This document shows positions 843 through 8,842 of a stretch of DNA of 8,936 nucleotides, piece after piece. Made by a program: the position numbers and the translations under genes. Position 1 is the stretch's first letter. Every line of letters begins with the position of its first letter. The stretch spans positions 5,715 to 14,650 of the forward strand of contig RYWC01000012.1 in assembly GCA_003979335.1 (NCBI GenBank), read 5' to 3'. A model generated the notes under the pieces. The model did no database searches and had not been told where the DNA came from. It saw only the letters and a list, made by a program, of their open reading frames with translations. The DNA comes from Clostridia bacterium (lineage in GTDB: Bacteria > Bacillota_A > Clostridia > Christensenellales > Borkfalkiaceae).

Positions 843-848
843 AGGAGG
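843..848 (+). promoter_or_regulatory. Ribosome binding site that fixes the relaxase start
   Basis: A perfect AGGAGG lies 6 nt before ATT (855-857) and 9 nt before ATA (858-860). No ATG, GTG or TTG occurs in frame nearby, so the site points to a non-canonical start. ATA is preferred because with it as residue 1 the protein aligns without a gap to pMV158 MobM, including residues 14, 16, 17, 24 and 25. Confidence 0.7.
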
Positions 849-857
849 AACAAAATT

Positions 858-2051
858 ATAAGTTATCAGGTAGTTAGAATAGAACAATTCAATAAAGGTA
901 GTTTAGGCAAGATTGGCGGCGAAACTGAACGCACAAGCAAGCACCACCGCAACGAAGATATAGACGACGAGCGCACACCGCTAAATCTCTATTTCAAGAA
1001 GTCGGAAGGCGGTCTTACCGCTCAATGGAAAAATACAATGAAAGAGCTAAACGCAACCTTCCGTGAAAAGAAAGACTCCACCGCTTTCGAGGGTATGATT
1101 ATCACATCGGATACGGTGTTCTTTGAGCGGCTCGGTTGGAAGAAAGGCGAAGAAACACCGTATGCGGTAATGGAGTTTTTCAACCGTTGTTATGAGTTCG
1201 CGTTGCAGGAAATCGGCTATAAAGGAACGGACAAAAACATATTGTCAGCCGTTATCCATTTGGACGAAACCACACCGCACTTACAGCTCTACTACATACC
1301 CGTCGTAGACACCGCCAAAAAGAAAGTCTATGAGAAAGGCGCGGACGGGAAAGTATTGCGGAACGAAAAAGGCTCGCCTATTCAAAAGAAAGACGAACAC
1401 GGCAAAAGCGTTTACGAGTATGTACCGTTGGAACAACCGAAACTTTGCAGTTCGGACTTTTGGAGTGAACGCGGTGGACAGTTATCCTACGGCAATATGC
1501 AGAATAGTTTTCACGAACAAATAGGCGTTCACTACGGTTTGGATCGCGGCGAAGTCGGAAGCAATAAAAAGCATACGACCAAGTACCAATGGCAAAAGCA
1601 AAAACAGGAAGCCGAACTTGCAAGTCTTGAAGCGGAAAAAGTCCACGCCGAAGAAGTAATCGAGCAGGCGCAAACAGCCGTTGCAACGAGAGATAAAGCG
1701 TTAGAAGAACTTAAACCGTTGCAGGGATATTTAGACGCTTTTCACGAAGCATTGAGCGGCGAGCTTCCGTTATCGCCTACTAAGTTACGGAAGATGATTA
1801 TCGGACTTACAACCGAGTATAAACGGCTGGAAGAAGAAAAGAAAATCACGGACAAAGACCGTGAAAACCTTTTCTCGGAATTGCAGAAAGCCGAGCGTCG
1901 CATACCCGAATTAGAGAAGTACAAAGAGTTTGTCGCTTTCGTAAACGAGTACGCGCCGGACAAGTTAGACGAAGCCAAGCGCACGGCAACCGAGCGCAAG
2001 AACGCACCGAAATCACCCGTTAAATCTACAAAGAATTGGTGGTCGAAGTAA
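858..2051 (+). CDS. MobV/Pre-type relaxase (plasmid mobilization protein) with altered active site
   Basis: This family nicks the origin of transfer, stays attached to the 5' end and pilots the strand into a recipient. With ATA as codon 1 the protein is 397 residues. The N-terminus (residues 1-35, starting ISYQVVRI) aligns ungapped with MobM. The metal-binding motif HLDETTPHLQ lies at 134-143. The Pre/Mob domain runs to about 240, and charged coiled-coil segments follow (about 243-290 and 320-365), as usual for dimerizing MobV proteins. Two substitutions stand out. Residue 22, His in MobM, is Glu (codon 921-923). The final His of the HxDExxPHxH motif is Gln (codon 1284-1286). An in-frame ATG at 708 lacks a ribosome binding site and would translate the oriT-like DNA, so I reject it. 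ATT at 855 is an alternative start. The family call is firm; activity is uncertain. Confidence 0.85.
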   Translation: MSYQVVRIEQFNKGSLGKIGGETERTSKHHRNEDIDDERTPLNLYFKKSEGGLTAQWKNTMKELNATFREKKDSTAFEGMIITSDTVFFERLGWKKGEETPYAVMEFFNRCYEFALQEIGYKGTDKNILSAVIHLDETTPHLQLYYIPVVDTAKKKVYEKGADGKVLRNEKGSPIQKKDEHGKSVYEYVPLEQPKLCSSDFWSERGGQLSYGNMQNSFHEQIGVHYGLDRGEVGSNKKHTTKYQWQKQKQEAELASLEAEKVHAEEVIEQAQTAVATRDKALEELKPLQGYLDAFHEALSGELPLSPTKLRKMIIGLTTEYKRLEEEKKITDKDRENLFSELQKAERRIPELEKYKEFVAFVNEYAPDKLDEAKRTATERKNAPKSPVKSTKNWWSK

Positions 2052-2120: not shown

Positions 2121-2166
2121 AAGAAAAAGGCGTGTCAATACGACATATATATTTACGGAGGGTATT

Positions 2167-2385
2167 ATGAAACCGAGAGCGGAAAAAGATAAGAACTATG
2201 AAGAACGGCACAGAGAAGAACGCAAAGCAAAAAGTTTGGTTTGGGGGACGAGCGTGCCGAGAAAACAGGCAGAAGAAATAAACACATTTTTAATGAAGAA
2301 CGGTTACACGAAAGTCCGTCTTATAGAAGCGGGATACAAAGTGTTATTAGAAGAAGCCGCTATGAAAGAGAGAAACGGACAGTAA
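2167..2385 (+). CDS. Small ribbon-helix-helix-like DNA-binding protein
   Basis: This 72-residue basic protein starts at ATG 5 nt after a GGAGG site (2157-2161). After a charged N-terminal tail (1-22, rich in Arg, Glu and Lys) it shows the ribbon-helix-helix order: a short strand (about 23-30, SLVWGTSV), helix one (about 32-45) and helix two (about 48-64), separated by the turn NGYT. Proteins of this fold bind DNA as dimers and serve as repressors or relaxosome accessory factors. It is the first gene after the consensus promoter and precedes the TnpW-like and recombinase genes, so autoregulation of that operon or help at oriT is plausible. The fold is inferred from the pattern only, and the exact family is not recognised. 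Confidence 0.7.
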   Translation: MKPRAEKDKNYEERHREERKAKSLVWGTSVPRKQAEEINTFLMKNGYTKVRLIEAGYKVLLEEAAMKERNGQ

Positions 2386-2459
2386 CCGAAAAGCAAACTA
2401 AACTTATGTGTTCTTCTTGTATGACGGGAACAAATAACTTGAAACGCCCGATTTCAGAC

Positions 2460-2465
2460 AAGGAG
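2460..2465 (+). promoter_or_regulatory. Ribosome binding site that reveals the TnpW-like gene
   Basis: AAGGAG lies 4 nt before ATT (2470-2472) and 7 nt before ATA (2473-2475). The frame is closed upstream by TGA at 2437-2439, and no ATG, GTG or TTG lies between that stop and 2473. Initiation must therefore use ATT or ATA if the gene is translated on its own. Confidence 0.6.
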
Positions 2466-2472
2466 TACCATT

Positions 2473-2748
2473 ATAAACAAGAACAAAGCAAGACCTAAGG
2501 CAGATATACTGTCTTACTATTATGAACAAGAGAACGGCTCGTTTGTAAGAAGCCGTGAAAAAGTTATCGGGAACACGGTCTATACCGTAATATCCCGTGA
2601 AAAGTCGGACACCGACGTTACGGCGTTCGAAATTACAAAAAGACTAATCGAGCGGAATATCGACGAAGCATTGAAACCGTCTGTTCCTATTCGGTTATCT
2701 CATAAGCAATCGCTTGGAAGTTGCAATTCGGGAGGTAATAAACAATGA
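2473..2748 (+). CDS. TnpW-like transposon-encoded protein with non-canonical start
   Basis: A 91-codon open frame runs from ATA (2473) to TGA (2746-2748), placed after an AAGGAG site at 7 nt. The middle of the product, residues about 24-58, has the pattern I associate with transposon-encoded TnpW proteins: an IGNTVYTVIS strand, a Ser/Asp/Thr-rich turn, then a helix ending KRLIERNIDEA. TnpW is found with TnpX-type serine recombinases in clostridial elements; its biochemical role is not established. The stop overlaps the recombinase start as ATGA, so the two are probably translationally coupled. Because it lacks a standard start codon, automatic gene finders would miss it. The tail (about 66-91) is Ser/Asn/Gly-rich and may be read through mainly for coupling. 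The family call is moderate; that the frame is coding is well supported by its length and position. Confidence 0.65.
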   Translation: MNKNKARPKADILSYYYEQENGSFVRSREKVIGNTVYTVISREKSDTDVTAFEITKRLIERNIDEALKPSVPIRLSHKQSLGSCNSGGNKQ

Positions 2749-4409
2749 ATTTGCAACCGACAATTAAATATAAGAAAGTAAAAAACACAGAAGAACAATG
2801 GACGGCTCTCTATTGCAGACTGTCCTGCGACGACGATTTGGACGGCGATTCCAACAGTATCCGAAATCAGAAAATGTTGTTACAAAAGTATGCGGACGAA
2901 AACCGTTTGCGCAACGTAAGGTTTTACGTGGACGACGGATATTCGGGAAGCAACTTTGACCGCCCCGACTTCAAGCGTATGATGGACGACGTGGACAACG
3001 GTAAAATATCTACAGTTATCGTCAAGGATATGTCGAGATTCGGCAGGGATCACATTCTTGTAGGCTATTACACCAAGTATTATCTTGCCGAAGCCGACGT
3101 AAGGTTTATAGCAATCTACGACCAAGTGGACAGCGAAACCAATCCCGACGACGATATTACACCGTTCAAAAACATACTCAACGAAATGTACGCCAAAGAT
3201 TGCAGTAAGAAAATTAAGGCAGTTGTCCGTGCCAAAGGCAATTCGGGCAAGCACATTACGACGATACCGCCGCTCGGTTATAAGAAAAGCCCCGAAGATA
3301 AAGAGAAATGGATTATAGACGAGAAAGGCGCGGAAATCGTAAAAGAGATTTTCAAACTCTGTATTCAAGGTTACGGTCCGACGCAGATAGCACGTATATT
3401 GACTGAACGAAAAGTTGAAACGCCCGTAATCTACTTTCACAATCACGGCTTATCCACGTCGTTGAAAATTCGGGAAGGCTCGGAAATTTGGTCGCAACAA
3501 ACGGTTTCGGGTATTCTTGAAAACTTGGAGTACACGGGTTGTACCGTAAACTTCAAGTCCTATAAGAAGTCATACAAGTCGAAACGACGCATTGAATTGC
3601 CGAGAGAAGATTGGGTTATCTTCGAGAACACGCAGGAAGCAATCATAGACAAGCAGACTTTTGATACCGTTCAAAAGATACGCGAGAACAAACGCCGTCC
3701 TACCGATATGGGCGAAATGAGTCCGCTGTCGGGTATGCTGTACTGTGCGGATTGCGGAAAGAAAATGTATCTTTGCCGATGTACCACTATGAAGCAAGCG
3801 GAATATTTCAACTGTTCTACATACCGTAAACAGAAGAAGCGTATTTGTGGCTCGCACCAAATAACGGTTAAAGCGGTAACGGCAATCATACAGGACGATT
3901 TGCGGCGTACCATCCATTTCGCCAAGAACCACAACGAAGAATTTTTACAGACCTTACGCAAGGACGCCGAAGCGAAAACGAAAAAGGAACTCAAAGAGAA
4001 CCTACGCGAAATAGAAACTTCGGAAGAACGCATAGACAAGCTCGACAAGATTATAGAGAGCTTGTACGAAGATAAGGTTGCGGGTAAAATCTCGGAAGAA
4101 CGGTATTTGAAAATGAGCGATACATACGAAGCCGAGCAAGCCACGCTGAAAGAGCGTGTCAAAACTCTGAAAGCGGAAATCGAGAAAGCAAAAGCGCAAG
4201 ACGATAAAATTCTCGAGTTTATGATGCTCATCTACAAGTACAGCAATTTTGAAGAAATCACGCCCGAAATTCTGCGTTCGTTCATTGACAAGGTAATCGT
4301 CCACGAGAAAACGAAAGTAAACGGACATTACAGACAAACCGTTGAAATTATCTATAACTTCGTGGGCACAATCGCGCCGCCGTTCTTCGATGACGACTAC
4401 GACAATTAA
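2745..4409 (+). CDS. Large serine recombinase (TnpX/TndX-type integrase)
   Basis: This 554-residue enzyme would excise and integrate the element by concerted double-strand cleavage with a 5'-phosphoserine link. The resolvase domain (about 19-160) has YCRLS with nucleophile Ser27, YSGSNFDRP (66-74) and the Arg-bearing DMSRFGRDH (95-103). A recombinase domain (about 170-290) follows, with PPLGYKK and a helix-turn-helix-like GYGPTQIARIL. The zinc ribbon has Cys334, Cys337, Cys357 and Cys368 as likely ligands. A charged coiled coil (about 400-490) and a C-terminal DUF4368-like segment (about 500-542) complete the usual order. The length fits the shorter members of the family (TnpX itself is longer). 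The start is set by GGAGGT (2731-2736), 8 nt upstream, and overlaps the preceding stop by 4 nt. All key residues are present, so it looks active. Confidence 0.93.
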   Translation: MNLQPTIKYKKVKNTEEQWTALYCRLSCDDDLDGDSNSIRNQKMLLQKYADENRLRNVRFYVDDGYSGSNFDRPDFKRMMDDVDNGKISTVIVKDMSRFGRDHILVGYYTKYYLAEADVRFIAIYDQVDSETNPDDDITPFKNILNEMYAKDCSKKIKAVVRAKGNSGKHITTIPPLGYKKSPEDKEKWIIDEKGAEIVKEIFKLCIQGYGPTQIARILTERKVETPVIYFHNHGLSTSLKIREGSEIWSQQTVSGILENLEYTGCTVNFKSYKKSYKSKRRIELPREDWVIFENTQEAIIDKQTFDTVQKIRENKRRPTDMGEMSPLSGMLYCADCGKKMYLCRCTTMKQAEYFNCSTYRKQKKRICGSHQITVKAVTAIIQDDLRRTIHFAKNHNEEFLQTLRKDAEAKTKKELKENLREIETSEERIDKLDKIIESLYEDKVAGKISEERYLKMSDTYEAEQATLKERVKTLKAEIEKAKAQDDKILEFMMLIYKYSNFEEITPEILRSFIDKVIVHEKTKVNGHYRQTVEIIYNFVGTIAPPFFDDDYDN

Positions 4410-4478: not shown

Positions 4479-4513
4479 TTACCTAAAATTCCCTATGGGA
4501 ACTACGGTAAACT
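4479..4513. repeat. Long imperfect palindrome and right copy of the terminal inverted repeat
   Basis: TTACC (4479-4483) pairs with GGTAA (4506-4510), and TTCCC (4489-4493) with GGGAA (4497-4501), around a TAT centre. This gives an imperfect palindrome of about 32 bp. Blocks CTAAAATTC (4483-4491) and ACGGTAAACT (4504-4513) recur inverted at 16-24 and 5-14. Serine recombinase attachment sites are imperfect palindromes of this size, so this is the best candidate for the right attachment site. It could also form an RNA hairpin in the 3' region of the minus-strand transcript. Confidence 0.45.
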
Positions 4514-4534
4514 CGGTGTTTTTATTTTGCTGTA

Positions 4535-7500
4535 TTATTCTTTGTTTTCTTCGCCGCCGTCAGACGTTTCTTCAACAGTTGAAGAGGGATTCTCTTCATT
4601 AGCGCCGTCGGGGGTTTCTTCCGTAGTTGTTGTATCTTCGGTAGTAACTTCTTCCGCGGTATTTGCGTTATTTTCCGCGCCGCCGTTGTTGTCGGAAGTT
4701 TCGGCTTCGGTTTCCTCGTTCTTTACAAGGTGAAGTTTTCTGATATAACGGTCGCGCTTGCGGTAAACGTTTTTGTTTGATGCCGCGTTGTTTTTCTTTC
4801 TTCTGTTCTTGATATACTGCGTAACGCCTATGGATACAAGGGTTATGAGAAGAACAACTACAAGAACTATCGAGGAAATATAAAGCCCGAGTTCTGCCGA
4901 GCTTGCCGCCTCGTCGTCGGTATCGCTGTCGTCGCCATCGTCGGTAGCGGTGTTTTTGGTGATGCTTTGGTCAACTGCCGAATAGTCTACGAATACGTTT
5001 CTTGAATGCTGCTGTTCGTCGTCGAATTTAAGGAACGCAAGCTTTTCGGTGAACAGAGACGTTTCGTAATTGTAACCCGTTTCCCCATCGCTTGCCGTGT
5101 CTGCGTTGAAAGGTACGTAAGCCGCTGAATCGTAAAGGGTGTAGGTGTAGTAGTTGGCGTCGAAACCGTAATCTGCTTTTACAGTGTCTTCGATGTCGTG
5201 CTTTTTAAGAAGCTCTTCATATGCCGAAATGTTTTCCGTTTTGATTTCGTCGAAAAGCTTAGTCCCGTCGGGAAGACCTTTTATAAGGTTGTAATAAGCG
5301 TTAAGAATTTCCGTTTCATACTGTTTAAGACGGGTTTCAACGTTGTTTACGGTGTGCTGGCTGATGTCGAAAGCAACTGCGCTTGTGTTGTCCGCGTTGC
5401 CTTTTTCGTCTCTTACGCCGTTCCAAAGTTCAAGCCTGTAATCTTTTGCTTCGCTACCTGCCTGAATAACGAAGTTTACCGTAATCCATCCGTTTTCATC
5501 GCCGAAGTTTGCGCAGTCTTCCGCGGTTATTTTTACCGCAAATTTCTTGTCAAGCGCAGTATAATTATATCTTGCAAGGTCTTTATCAAAGGCGTTTACT
5601 TCCGTAAGAGGCTTCATCTTGCCGTCTTCCGCGTCTTTTACAAGATAGAAATACTTTCCGTCTTTGTACTCGTAAACGTTTTCGCCGTTGCTGTTGCAAA
5701 GGTAGTGGTCTGCAACTTTACTGCGGTCTGTCGCGCTGAGGTAATAATCTTCGCCGTCTTTAAGGTCGTCGTAATTTACGGGATTGCCGTCCTTATCAAA
5801 GAAGTTATTGTGCTCGAATTTCGAATCTTTATAAGTCTTTATAAGGTTGTGCAGGTTTGCGTAAACCTTACCGTCCTTACCGTCGTAAAGTCCGTCGTCC
5901 CTGAGTGTGTAAACAATGTGCTTGCGGTGGGTTTCACTGTTCCAATCGCTGTCGAACTCTTCGTCAAGAACGTTACCTTCTTCGTCATAATAGAATGTGT
6001 AGTCGGGCGTGTTGTAACTTAAAACGTTTTTGTCGTCGGGGTTGACCAGATAAACATAAGCAAACGCGTCGGAGCCTGAGACTTTGACTTTTACGCTGAC
6101 CGTTTCGGCATTGTTTGCGGAAACGCTCTTCTTTTCGCCGATAAATCCGTAGTTTGCAACTTCGCTCAAAGTGTAGTAGGTTGCGTTTTCATCCCATGTC
6201 GTGCCTGCGGCAGGCTTATATTTTTTGCCGTTTAAAGCGGTGATTATATCTGCGCCTGTTTCGTTTTCGCCTGCTTCAAGATAATAATTTCCGTTATCGA
6301 ACGTCTCTTCGGTTGCGTCAGCTTTGTCTGCATATTTTCTTAAAACGTCGTTTATTATGATAAGGGGCTGATAGCAGTTTTCGCCGAATACATCGCTCCA
6401 ATTGCCGCTTGCTTTACCGAAGCTTGTCGCAATTGTGCTCCAATTCGCGTAGCTTTCCGCGTGTTCTTTATTAATAAGACCGGCCAGAGCGTTTGTATTG
6501 CCAGCGTCGAACGAAGGCTTGCTGTCAGCGTCCGTAACGGAAGAGCTTCCGCCGTTTTTGCCTACATACTTGTCGGGCGTTGCAATTCCCGTCTTTATGT
6601 CGGAAGTTCCCGTAGCCTCGTCCATAACTTTTCCGCTTTCGCTGTCGTCTTCGTTTGAGAACGAGAACAGGGCGGTGGTAGTGCCGCTTGAAGCAAGGTC
6701 GTAAATTTCTTTATCTATTTCAAGCGTCTGCATGTTTGCCACAACCGCCCAACCTGCGTTGTAATTGCCTGCGGCGTTAATAATTGCGGTGGTGCCGAAA
6801 CTGAAATCGATTTTAAAGTTTTTAGCTACGTCTGTGTCATTCTTTACAAAGAAGAAACACTGTACCCAGCCTTCATATATATCTTTCTGGTTTTCGAAAT
6901 TCGTCTTGTTGCCCGTCGTGTCAATTGTCAGCGTCTGCGCGCTGTCCTTTATGGGCAAACCGTTTTCGTCTTCCTCGTAAATTTTAAGGGTGGCGGCGGT
7001 GCCGCCGTCCATATCGCTGGTTTTTACCCAAAGAGATACAACGTAATAGCCGTCTTTATCGGTATCGCCTACGCTGAACGAGGGGGTAATTGTTGCGGTA
7101 TAGGGCACGCCCCATTCGGAGAACAATGCAAGAATGTTTCCGCCGTTTTTTGCAGGAAGTTTGTCCAATCCTTTGACTGCGTCGTTAAGTTCTTTGGCGT
7201 AAGTTCCCGTAAAAGTATGGTTCTTTGCGAACGCGCCTATAATGTCTTCGCTTGTGGGCAGAGGCTGTGTATCCTTTACAAGGTTTAAATCGCTCTGCGT
7301 CTTTTTACCTACGTTGGTCGTGTTAAAAGAGTTGGTGGTAGCGGCGTAAATTTTGCCCTTGCTGTCCTTTTCTGTCGTAAGGGCGGCGGTTACATTTGCG
7401 GCGCCGAACTCAAACGAGTTGTAAACGTTGCCTGCGCCCTGTTCGGAAGCAAGGTCGATGAGGTAGCGGAAGTCGTAAGCGTGCCTTGTATCGCTGCTGC

Positions 7501-8842
7501 CTCTTGTCAGAACGTCGGCATAGAAAATTTTATCGTCCGCTTCCGAGGTAAGGTTGCAACTTGTCCCTTTTGCCGTTATTTCGGAAGCATAGTCGCCGTA
7601 ACTGCACTTTTCGTCTTCGAGAGAGCGGTATTTGGTAACCTTTACGTCGTCAAAGAAAGCGTAACCTGTAACTTTTTCGTTGTTGTCGCTGCCGCCGAGC
7701 CCGAGCCTGATTTGAACGGTGCTTGACGCAAAGTCGCATGCGTTGACGTAAACGGTATAGTTGAGCCAGCCGTTGCTTTCAACGCCGTCCAAAGCGTTGT
7801 CGGGCGCGCCTGCAATAATTTTTTCTGTGTTTATGGCTTTAACGGAAAAATTGTCGATTGTGGTACTGTTGACCTGTTGAATAATTTCCACATACGCGCC
7901 TTTGTCTTCGTCTTCAAGCGCGCTGTAACCCTTGTCGAATTTAAGGTCTGAAGTTTTAACCCAGAACGAAATTTCCGCCGAGGTGTTTGCTTCAAGGGTT
8001 ATTGCGGAAGCGGTGTAATATTGGTTTACGCCGTTAAACTTAGTGTCGGTGGGGGAGTTGTGTATCATAAGCACGTTGGAAACGTAATTTTCTTTTCCGT
8101 CGCCGTCCTTATAATACAGGCTGCCTGTTATATCTTCGGTAAGAAGTTCGTATTCTTTGCCGTCAACAGTAATTTTTGTGTTGTCGTCATTGATATCGTA
8201 ATGGGTTTTGGGATTGGAGATAGTCTGCTTTCTCACATACTTGGTAAAGTCTGTGTCGAAATAGAATTCCCCGTCGTCCTCGTTCTTGTAAACTTGGGTT
8301 TTTCCTTCGCCCTCGCCGATATAATAATTATCGCCTTCCTGAACAATGCCGAAGTAAGCTTCATAACCCTGATTTTTAATCCAGCTGTCTTTTACGTCGT
8401 CCGCTTCGAGCATAGCGGCGTAGTTGTCCTTGTAAAGAAGGTCCCTCGAACGCATACCGTTATAGTCGACGTATTCCTCGTTGTCCGAAGAAAGGTCGTT
8501 GTTATAATCGAGTTTTCCAGAAAGTTCTTCGTCGGTTATGTCTTTAAAAGCCTTGTCCGAAACGTTTATAACGCCCGATTTGACGGAAGTGTCTCCGCCG
8601 AGCGACCAGTTATTTACGTTTCTTATAAAGTGCACGGCTTTGTCGGGAATTGCAAAATGCTCGAAGTTTCCGTTTTTCAAAAGCTGTGTATCGTCCCTTG
8701 CGGCGACGGCGTTGGATTGCTCGTCGTCTTCTCCGTTGTTCGCGCAGGCTGCCGCAAGTCCGGTGCAGGTAACCGACAGCGCGCAAAGCATAGCTATTAG
8801 GGATTTTCTCGTTCTGTTTTTATTAGAGTAATTTTTAGCCAT
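4535..8842 (-). CDS. Giant exported, membrane-anchored surface protein with repeated beta-sandwich modules
   Basis: This 1435-residue protein starts 4 nt after AGGAG (8847-8851). An N-terminal signal (basic 8-13, hydrophobic 15-32) ends at LAAAC with Cys33, a plausible though not ideal lipobox. NGNFE (57-61) opens a carbohydrate-binding-module-like fold. Three divergent modules recur, each with a surface strand and a Gly-Trp strand: ISFWVKTSDL (291-300) with NGWLNY (357-362); VSLWVKTSDM (602-611) with EGWVQC (657-662); VSVKVKVSGS (915-924) with NGWITV (1117-1122). Module one ends GYAFFDDVKVTKY, typical of galactose-binding-like jelly rolls. Acidic, Tyr-rich insertions (about 120-255 and 950-1090) contain YxDxxG-like units. 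One membrane segment (about 1318-1344) is followed by a basic stretch and a 91-residue tail ending Glu/Thr-rich. No catalytic motif was recognised. Glycan binding at the cell surface is inferred. It is transcribed toward the element. Confidence 0.85.
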   Translation of the reverse strand: MAKNYSNKNRTRKSLIAMLCALSVTCTGLAAACANNGEDDEQSNAVAARDDTQLLKNGNFEHFAIPDKAVHFIRNVNNWSLGGDTSVKSGVINVSDKAFKDITDEELSGKLDYNNDLSSDNEEYVDYNGMRSRDLLYKDNYAAMLEADDVKDSWIKNQGYEAYFGIVQEGDNYYIGEGEGKTQVYKNEDDGEFYFDTDFTKYVRKQTISNPKTHYDINDDNTKITVDGKEYELLTEDITGSLYYKDGDGKENYVSNVLMIHNSPTDTKFNGVNQYYTASAITLEANTSAEISFWVKTSDLKFDKGYSALEDEDKGAYVEIIQQVNSTTIDNFSVKAINTEKIIAGAPDNALDGVESNGWLNYTVYVNACDFASSTVQIRLGLGGSDNNEKVTGYAFFDDVKVTKYRSLEDEKCSYGDYASEITAKGTSCNLTSEADDKIFYADVLTRGSSDTRHAYDFRYLIDLASEQGAGNVYNSFEFGAANVTAALTTEKDSKGKIYAATTNSFNTTNVGKKTQSDLNLVKDTQPLPTSEDIIGAFAKNHTFTGTYAKELNDAVKGLDKLPAKNGGNILALFSEWGVPYTATITPSFSVGDTDKDGYYVVSLWVKTSDMDGGTAATLKIYEEDENGLPIKDSAQTLTIDTTGNKTNFENQKDIYEGWVQCFFFVKNDTDVAKNFKIDFSFGTTAIINAAGNYNAGWAVVANMQTLEIDKEIYDLASSGTTTALFSFSNEDDSESGKVMDEATGTSDIKTGIATPDKYVGKNGGSSSVTDADSKPSFDAGNTNALAGLINKEHAESYANWSTIATSFGKASGNWSDVFGENCYQPLIIINDVLRKYADKADATEETFDNGNYYLEAGENETGADIITALNGKKYKPAAGTTWDENATYYTLSEVANYGFIGEKKSVSANNAETVSVKVKVSGSDAFAYVYLVNPDDKNVLSYNTPDYTFYYDEEGNVLDEEFDSDWNSETHRKHIVYTLRDDGLYDGKDGKVYANLHNLIKTYKDSKFEHNNFFDKDGNPVNYDDLKDGEDYYLSATDRSKVADHYLCNSNGENVYEYKDGKYFYLVKDAEDGKMKPLTEVNAFDKDLARYNYTALDKKFAVKITAEDCANFGDENGWITVNFVIQAGSEAKDYRLELWNGVRDEKGNADNTSAVAFDISQHTVNNVETRLKQYETEILNAYYNLIKGLPDGTKLFDEIKTENISAYEELLKKHDIEDTVKADYGFDANYYTYTLYDSAAYVPFNADTASDGETGYNYETSLFTEKLAFLKFDDEQQHSRNVFVDYSAVDQSITKNTATDDGDDSDTDDEAASSAELGLYISSIVLVVVLLITLVSIGVTQYIKNRRKKNNAASNKNVYRKRDRYIRKLHLVKNEETEAETSDNNGGAENNANTAEEVTTEDTTTTEETPDGANEENPSSTVEETSDGGEENKE

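Follow-up and report, generated by a model that had tools for sequence, protein, structure and literature searches.

A Tn4451-like element of Clostridia keeps its relaxase and TnpW-like genes on near-cognate start codons, probably as a translational throttle

Mobilizable transposons of the Tn4451/Tn4453 type carry TnpX, TnpW and TnpZ, and relaxases of the kind found in such elements are structurally represented by MobM (crystal chain 4lvi), which we take to be the relaxase of plasmid pMV158 and which presumably starts with AUG, unlike the relaxases described here. To our knowledge, near-cognate start codons are known in bacteria for only a handful of genes. Initiation at AUU is said to occur in the insertion sequence IS911 (attributed to Polard 1991 and Prere 2011). 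In Staphylococcus aureus, one report describes non-canonical starts behind extended Shine–Dalgarno (SD) sequences in infC (AUA), ccpN (AUA) and cvfC1 (AUU), the natural starts of ccpN and cvfC1 giving ∼10% of the AUG output in poor medium and the AUA start of ccpN up to 30% of it in rich medium (PMC13009471).

The element described here shares with Tn4451/Tn4453 the combination of a Mob_Pre/MobV relaxase, a DUF4368 large serine recombinase and, encoded directly upstream of the recombinase, a TnpW-family protein. It differs in that no resistance gene was seen, in that the ribosome site of the recombinase lies in a hairpin, and in the near-cognate starts of the relaxase and TnpW genes, which were read in this element and its relatives. 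MobM belongs to the same relaxase family, and its first residues, Ser-Tyr, match the codons that follow the near-cognate codon. An AUU start in a transposition gene is the feature in common with IS911, where the start belongs to an insertion sequence and is linked to programmed frameshifting, whereas here it concerns a relaxase and TnpW with no sign of frameshifting. The staphylococcal genes likewise have a near-cognate start behind an extended SD, and for ccpN and cvfC1 the measured output was low; those three are single host genes, whereas the present case involves two genes carried by a mobile element, across a large clade and with swaps among weak codons. Weak starts as such are thus already known (infC, ccpN, cvfC1 and IS911); for relaxases and TnpW, no report of near-cognate starts in the open-access literature was found among the matches listed, and to that extent the observation is new.

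The window, by which we mean the whole 8,936-nt stretch of Clostridia bacterium DNA that was analysed (contig RYWC01000012.1), is occupied from position 1 to about 4511 by a Tn4451-type mobilizable element with a MobV relaxase, a 72-aa gene, a TnpW-like gene and a large serine recombinase (Table 1), the DUF4368 recombinase, the Mob relaxase and the TnpW-like gene forming the gene set of this type. The relaxase matches Pfam Mob_Pre (PF01076) with 91.5 bits (cut-off 25.5, E 8e-26) and NCBIfam MobV (NF041497) with 102.6 bits (cut-off 100), which places it in the MobV family. The stop codon of tnpW, TGA, overlaps the recombinase ATG (ATGA). The nearest relatives of the window are Clostridia records, mostly metagenome-assembled. 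Two of the searches of viral contig and phage records gave no match, and the others gave only distant loci: one recombinase locus, one relaxase locus and eleven records with distant relaxases. The window has no match to Rfam at gathering cut-offs.

Table 1. Coordinates of the element's features in the window
Feature	Position	Strand	Basis or remark
SD AGGAGG of MobV relaxase gene	843..848	+	Sequence; SD core in 94/96 distinct relaxases
MobV relaxase gene	858..2051	+	Start ATA 858-860, ATT 855 just before; Pfam Mob_Pre, NCBIfam MobV
SD GGAGGG of small gene	2157..2162	+	Sequence
Small 72-aa gene (control gene, ordinary ATG start)	2167..2385	+	ORF; ATG in 29/30 distinct relatives
SD AAGGAG of tnpW	2460..2465	+	Sequence; similar SDs in relatives
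tnpW-like gene	2473..2748	+	ATA 2473-2475 most likely start; ATT 2470 possible
Hairpin GTTGCAATTC / GAATTTGCAAC	2720..2757	+	Recombinase SD (2730-2735) in loop, ATG at stem
Large serine recombinase, ATG start	2745..4409	+	Pfam: Resolvase, Recombinase, Zn ribbon, DUF4368
Right end of element	4505..4515, ~4511		Homology to L002, L003, L004 ends at 4510-4512

The open frame of tnpW runs from 2443 to 2748 and is closed upstream by a TGA at 2440-2442. An earlier, sequence-only reading had the frame closed at 2437-2439, and the closure itself stands with a three-base correction of its place, as 2437-2439 reads ACT. It was right that ATT 2470 and ATA 2473 lie behind AAGGAG; no in-frame ATG, GTG or TTG occurs before the TTG at 2671, a codon that would leave only 25 codons of the gene. 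Judged from the SD spacing, which is 7 nt for the ATA and 4 nt for the neighbouring ATT, the ATA is the likelier start codon of the two. The search for relatives found 34 predicted homologues of the protein, and, of the 35 sequences in the alignment of these homologues, 12 match the Pfam family TnpW (PF14202; best E 1.5e-7), whereas the window protein itself has no match to this profile at E up to 10. Since its kinship runs through the homologues, together with the position of the gene before the recombinase, we call the protein TnpW-like and do not treat it as a direct member of the profile. An AlphaFold2 model of the protein had a mean pLDDT of 65.7, and Foldseek found no match to it in the PDB at E 0.001.

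The frame is kept as a protein in the relatives. A comparison of synonymous and non-synonymous change, as the sequence-only reading had proposed, indicates purifying selection, with dN/dS of 0.24-0.38 among the window and its relatives L002, L003 and L004 and of 0.10, 0.11 and 0.26 in three other pairs (two comparisons with L005, whose coordinates were out of frame, were left out). The start was read in 37 distinct tnpW genes, after one of 38 (L020) had been dropped for a broken frame. An ATA, ATT or ACG stands 6-10 nt behind an SD in 31 of the 37, while the same codons occupy 22 of 102 places at three control positions 9-27 nt further along the frames; the remaining genes start with ATG in one case (L043) and probably with TTG in two (L175, L198), and three have no clear SD. 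Eighteen of the 31 near-cognate genes, the window's included, are without any in-frame ATG, GTG or TTG upstream in the open frame, and in L007, L008 and L014 a stop codon lies just before the SD. The other 13 have such a codon 15-54 nt upstream, so an ordinary start is possible in these genes.

The relaxase had been said to share this weak start, and its AGGAGG is indeed followed by ATT and ATA (Table 1). We surveyed 251 genomes related to one carrier and found Mob_Pre matches in 78; the 100 listed places that were fetched, together with the window and L002-L019, gave 112 genes with a readable start, of which 98 were distinct by their first 150 residues and 96 were kept after two from other clades (L191, L237) had been set aside. 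These 96 start with ATA (64), ATT (16), ATC (8), ACG (2), TTG (3) or ATG (2), with one misprojected start (L238, set aside, as was the misaligned L094), which makes 90 of the 96 near-cognate. The spacing between SD and start is 6-9 nt in 89. Nearly half of the near-cognate relaxases (42 of 90) have some in-frame ATG, GTG or TTG upstream, five of them only within 12 nt, and the other 48 have none in the frame. Where an in-frame stop lies at most eight codons upstream, 29 of 37 relaxases have no ATG, GTG or TTG between that stop and the conserved Ser-Tyr, and the ATA of L160 and L173 follows the stop immediately.

Conservation of the protein sequence begins at the same place. Codon 2 of the relaxase is Ser in 86 of 95 sequences, written as TCN in 35 and as AGY in 51, and codon 3 is Tyr in 88, whereas the residues at codons -1 and -2 are variable; because Ser is kept through both codon boxes and the preceding codons drift, translation appears to start at the near-cognate codon 1. 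In the alignment with MobM, residue 2 (Ser) of the window relaxase query falls on residue 1 of chain 4lvi, and a distant relaxase aligns likewise. The ATG at 708, which the list of open reading frames had taken as the relaxase start, is missing in L004. The relaxase has a dN/dS of 0.07 between the window and L004; window and L002 differ by only two changes, both non-synonymous.

Weak starts of this kind lead gene finders to place the starts of these genes wrongly, in agreement with the earlier remark that they are missed or misplaced. Among the 120 listed homologues of the relaxase L164 (P0035-P0154), 59 have annotations that begin at an internal Met, codon 8, which reveals a systematic annotation error at relaxase starts; the other 61 comprise 50 that are N-terminally extended with Ile at the start position, five that begin MSY and six of other kinds.

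The sequence-only reading had pictured two independent changes from ATG to ATA within the element. This is not supported, as the weak state spans a large clade in which a tree of 95 relaxases requires at least 18 start-codon changes, mostly among weak codons. Neither are the homologues uniformly ATG-started, as ATG occurs in 2 of 96 relaxases and in 1 of 37 tnpW genes. Although a single transition would turn ATA into ATG, an average of 9.2 changes over 300 traced parsimonious histories lead from ATA to ATT or ATC, against 0.6 from ATA to ATG and 2.0 that reach ATG from any codon, counts that are rough because the tree is a quick one with long branches and a root state that may be ATA or ATC. 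Since the changes of the codon, though frequent, lead mostly to other weak codons, selection seems to keep the start weak, and the pattern suggests that weak initiation itself is under selection in both relaxase and tnpW. That 'not AUG' is kept across a large relaxase clade and in TnpW while the codon itself shifts is unusually clean evidence of selected weak initiation, and the relatives offer a natural panel of about 100 start sites on which the roles of IF3 and SD strength in initiation can be studied. A conserved near-cognate start with a strong SD, a feature expected of genes with IF3-regulated starts, is present in relaxase and tnpW alike.

Avoidance of ATG is seen in two of the element's four genes. 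All 36 distinct relatives have a recombinase that starts with ATG, 34 of them read by script and the other two, L175 and L176, by eye. In the small gene, ATT 2164 is followed by ATG 2167, as had been claimed, and its 30 distinct relatives have ATG in 29 and GTG in one (by script 27 ATG, two GTG and one without a start; L014 and L157 were corrected by eye); as the script could find only ATG, GTG and TTG, the ATG counts of both genes lean on contexts read by eye. Other relaxase clades mostly lack the weak start. At the level of the order, 15 of 24 loci belong to other relaxase clades and all start with ATG, all eight of the SYxxCHM type have an ATA or ATT start (genomes already counted contribute at least three, L267, L277 and L278), and L283 is unclear. 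At the level of the class, 24 of 29 loci outside the clade were readable, with ATG in 22, TTG in L088 and apparently ATT in L085. A relaxase of a Clostridioides difficile plasmid has an ATG start, and a second relaxase in one carrier genome, G003 (L075), has a TTG start. The L085 relaxase, of another clade (IIAKKNYSVARV), seems to be ATT-started behind AAAGGAG, with a stop directly before.

We consider a shared translational throttle, one of two options that the sequence-only reading had offered, the best explanation of the weak starts: with a probability of about 0.77, this Tn4451-like element keeps its relaxase and TnpW genes on near-cognate starts as a maintained throttle that probably reaches the recombinase by coupling. 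Relaxase and TnpW would start at AUA or AUU behind strong SD sequences, and relaxase output would be held to a small fraction of the AUG level. Ribosomes coming from the weak tnpW codon would probably have to open the hairpin to free the recombinase ribosome site. If tnpW translation opens the hairpin in this way, the one weak tnpW codon would also gate recombinase output. With both DNA-processing enzymes kept low, there would be less nicking and excision of the host chromosome, which suggests a translational brake on mobile-element transfer.

The hairpin lies inside the 3′ end of tnpW (Table 1). It was counted in 13 rows of one type, 12 of them distinct, with relatives that have other loop lengths (L016, L062) or other stems left out. 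In the 12 distinct rows, four of the 11 pairs have changes on both sides and pairing holds in 96.2% of cells; neither value is reached in any of 500 shuffles, and slid versions of the pairing attain at most 47.7%. Further pair types show no excess over the shuffles (5 vs 5.2). Five distant relatives have unrelated stems at the same place, with z between -2.7 and -4.4, and the copy in the window has no more than modest stability (z -1.31). At least six pairs span SD and start in 22 of 28 distinct recombinase starts, 6 of 25 small-gene starts and 28 of 92 relaxase starts, and the median z of the start region is -1.95 for the recombinase, +0.19 for the small gene and +0.86 for the relaxase (n 92), which is not structured. 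The hairpin likely couples the recombinase to tnpW translation. In Bacillus badius a hairpin that looks similar by eye precedes the recombinase, where TnpW is ATG-started and ends before the hairpin, so coupling to tnpW is not the only role such a hairpin may have. The counterpart of the window's hairpin around the recombinase ribosome site is at 3477-3514 in L294.

A more specific explanation than a constant throttle is a switch that responds to IF3, in which this factor rejects the weak codons and relaxase and TnpW rise as free IF3 falls, in the manner of infC; we regard this as possible and hold it only tentatively. ATA, ATT, ATC and ACG form the class of starts against which IF3 discriminates, and among the 96 relaxases GTG is absent and TTG occurs in three, in accordance with such a switch, although those three TTG starts fit plain weakness equally well. 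A search of 18 host genomes detected the IF3 gene, which the sequence-only reading had suggested checking, in 16 of them, and by eye infC itself starts with ATT (nine) or ATC (one) behind an SD in 10 of the 16 host loci (L021-L036). On the other hand, infC has an ATG in L023 and an ATG beside the ATT in L027 and L032, and three further loci (L021, L026, L034) are unreadable. The staphylococcal precedents are divided: an effect of growth medium is reported for the AUA start of ccpN, whereas the AUU start of cvfC1 showed none (PMC13009471). A wider proposal, that IF3 availability acts as a sensor timing exit and transfer of the element through start-codon proofreading of the relaxase and, by way of tnpW coupling, of the recombinase, is speculative, and we think it unlikely to hold in full.

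The weak codons might also not be starts at all, with translation beginning instead at an ATG at codon 8 of the relaxase and at an internal or upstream codon of tnpW. Codon 8 is ATG in 82 of 95 relaxases, the annotations that begin there agree with it, and the homologue P0002 is annotated from further upstream of tnpW (MKRPISDKEYII...), which at first resembled an ordinary upstream start, as would the upstream codons of the 13 genes noted above. However, the SD of most relaxases is at its working distance from codon 1 and a long way from codon 8, codons 2-7 show conservation at the protein level and are present in MobM, and codon 8 of the window relaxase is not ATG; the frame of the P0002-type start is off by one base in the window, L002, L003 and L004, and we consider this alternative very improbable. 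About as hard to maintain, in our judgement highly improbable, is that the host lineage uses AUA and AUU starts generally, through an altered initiator tRNA or IF3, and that the element is nothing special. The weak infC starts of the hosts would fit such a habit, whereas the small gene and recombinase of the same elements keep ATG and the host genomes speak against it. In 400 kb of G003, with 271 long frames, SD-supported starts were 67 ATG, four TTG and two GTG (180 of the 271 frames have no SD core), and the 18 frames with only a near-cognate codon behind the SD were, by eye, each beside an ATG or inside the gene. A stricter test, which required an SD and no alternative start nearby, was run on 400 kb each of two genomes: G003 gave 30 ATG, five TTG and no near-cognate start, and G224 gave 46 ATG, five GTG, one TTG and seven near-cognate cases, over a background of 139 matches at other codons. 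Of those seven, the element's own relaxase is the only one that resembles a gene by eye. The other option of the sequence-only reading, a host factor licensing AUA starts generally, is thus not supported: by eye no gene-like near-cognate start lay outside the element in these 2 × 400 kb, and most host genomes have IF3. Loss of the ATG by mutation bias, decay or assembly error has a practically negligible chance: the host genomes come from metagenome assembly and the start regions are A+T-rich, as it would have it, whereas separate assemblies agree, neighbouring genes keep ATG, the low dN/dS of both genes indicates maintained proteins, and the codon is swapped among ATA, ATT and ATC.

A translational throttle remains our preferred reading of the two weak starts, and a few observations on the rest of the window may be added. 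A segment of about 130 bp at 549-680, between leader and relaxase, is missing in L004 (at about 4226) and shows inverted repeats by eye; it is possibly an oriT or a small insertion. The leader itself, at 198-326 and 376-548, is conserved with L004 and has no Rfam match. Outside the element and unrelated to it, the minus strand carries a 1435-aa frame at 4535-8842, which matches no Pfam or NCBIfam family above cut-off and in which, by eye, the N-terminus is lipoprotein-like and the C-terminus contains a membrane segment.
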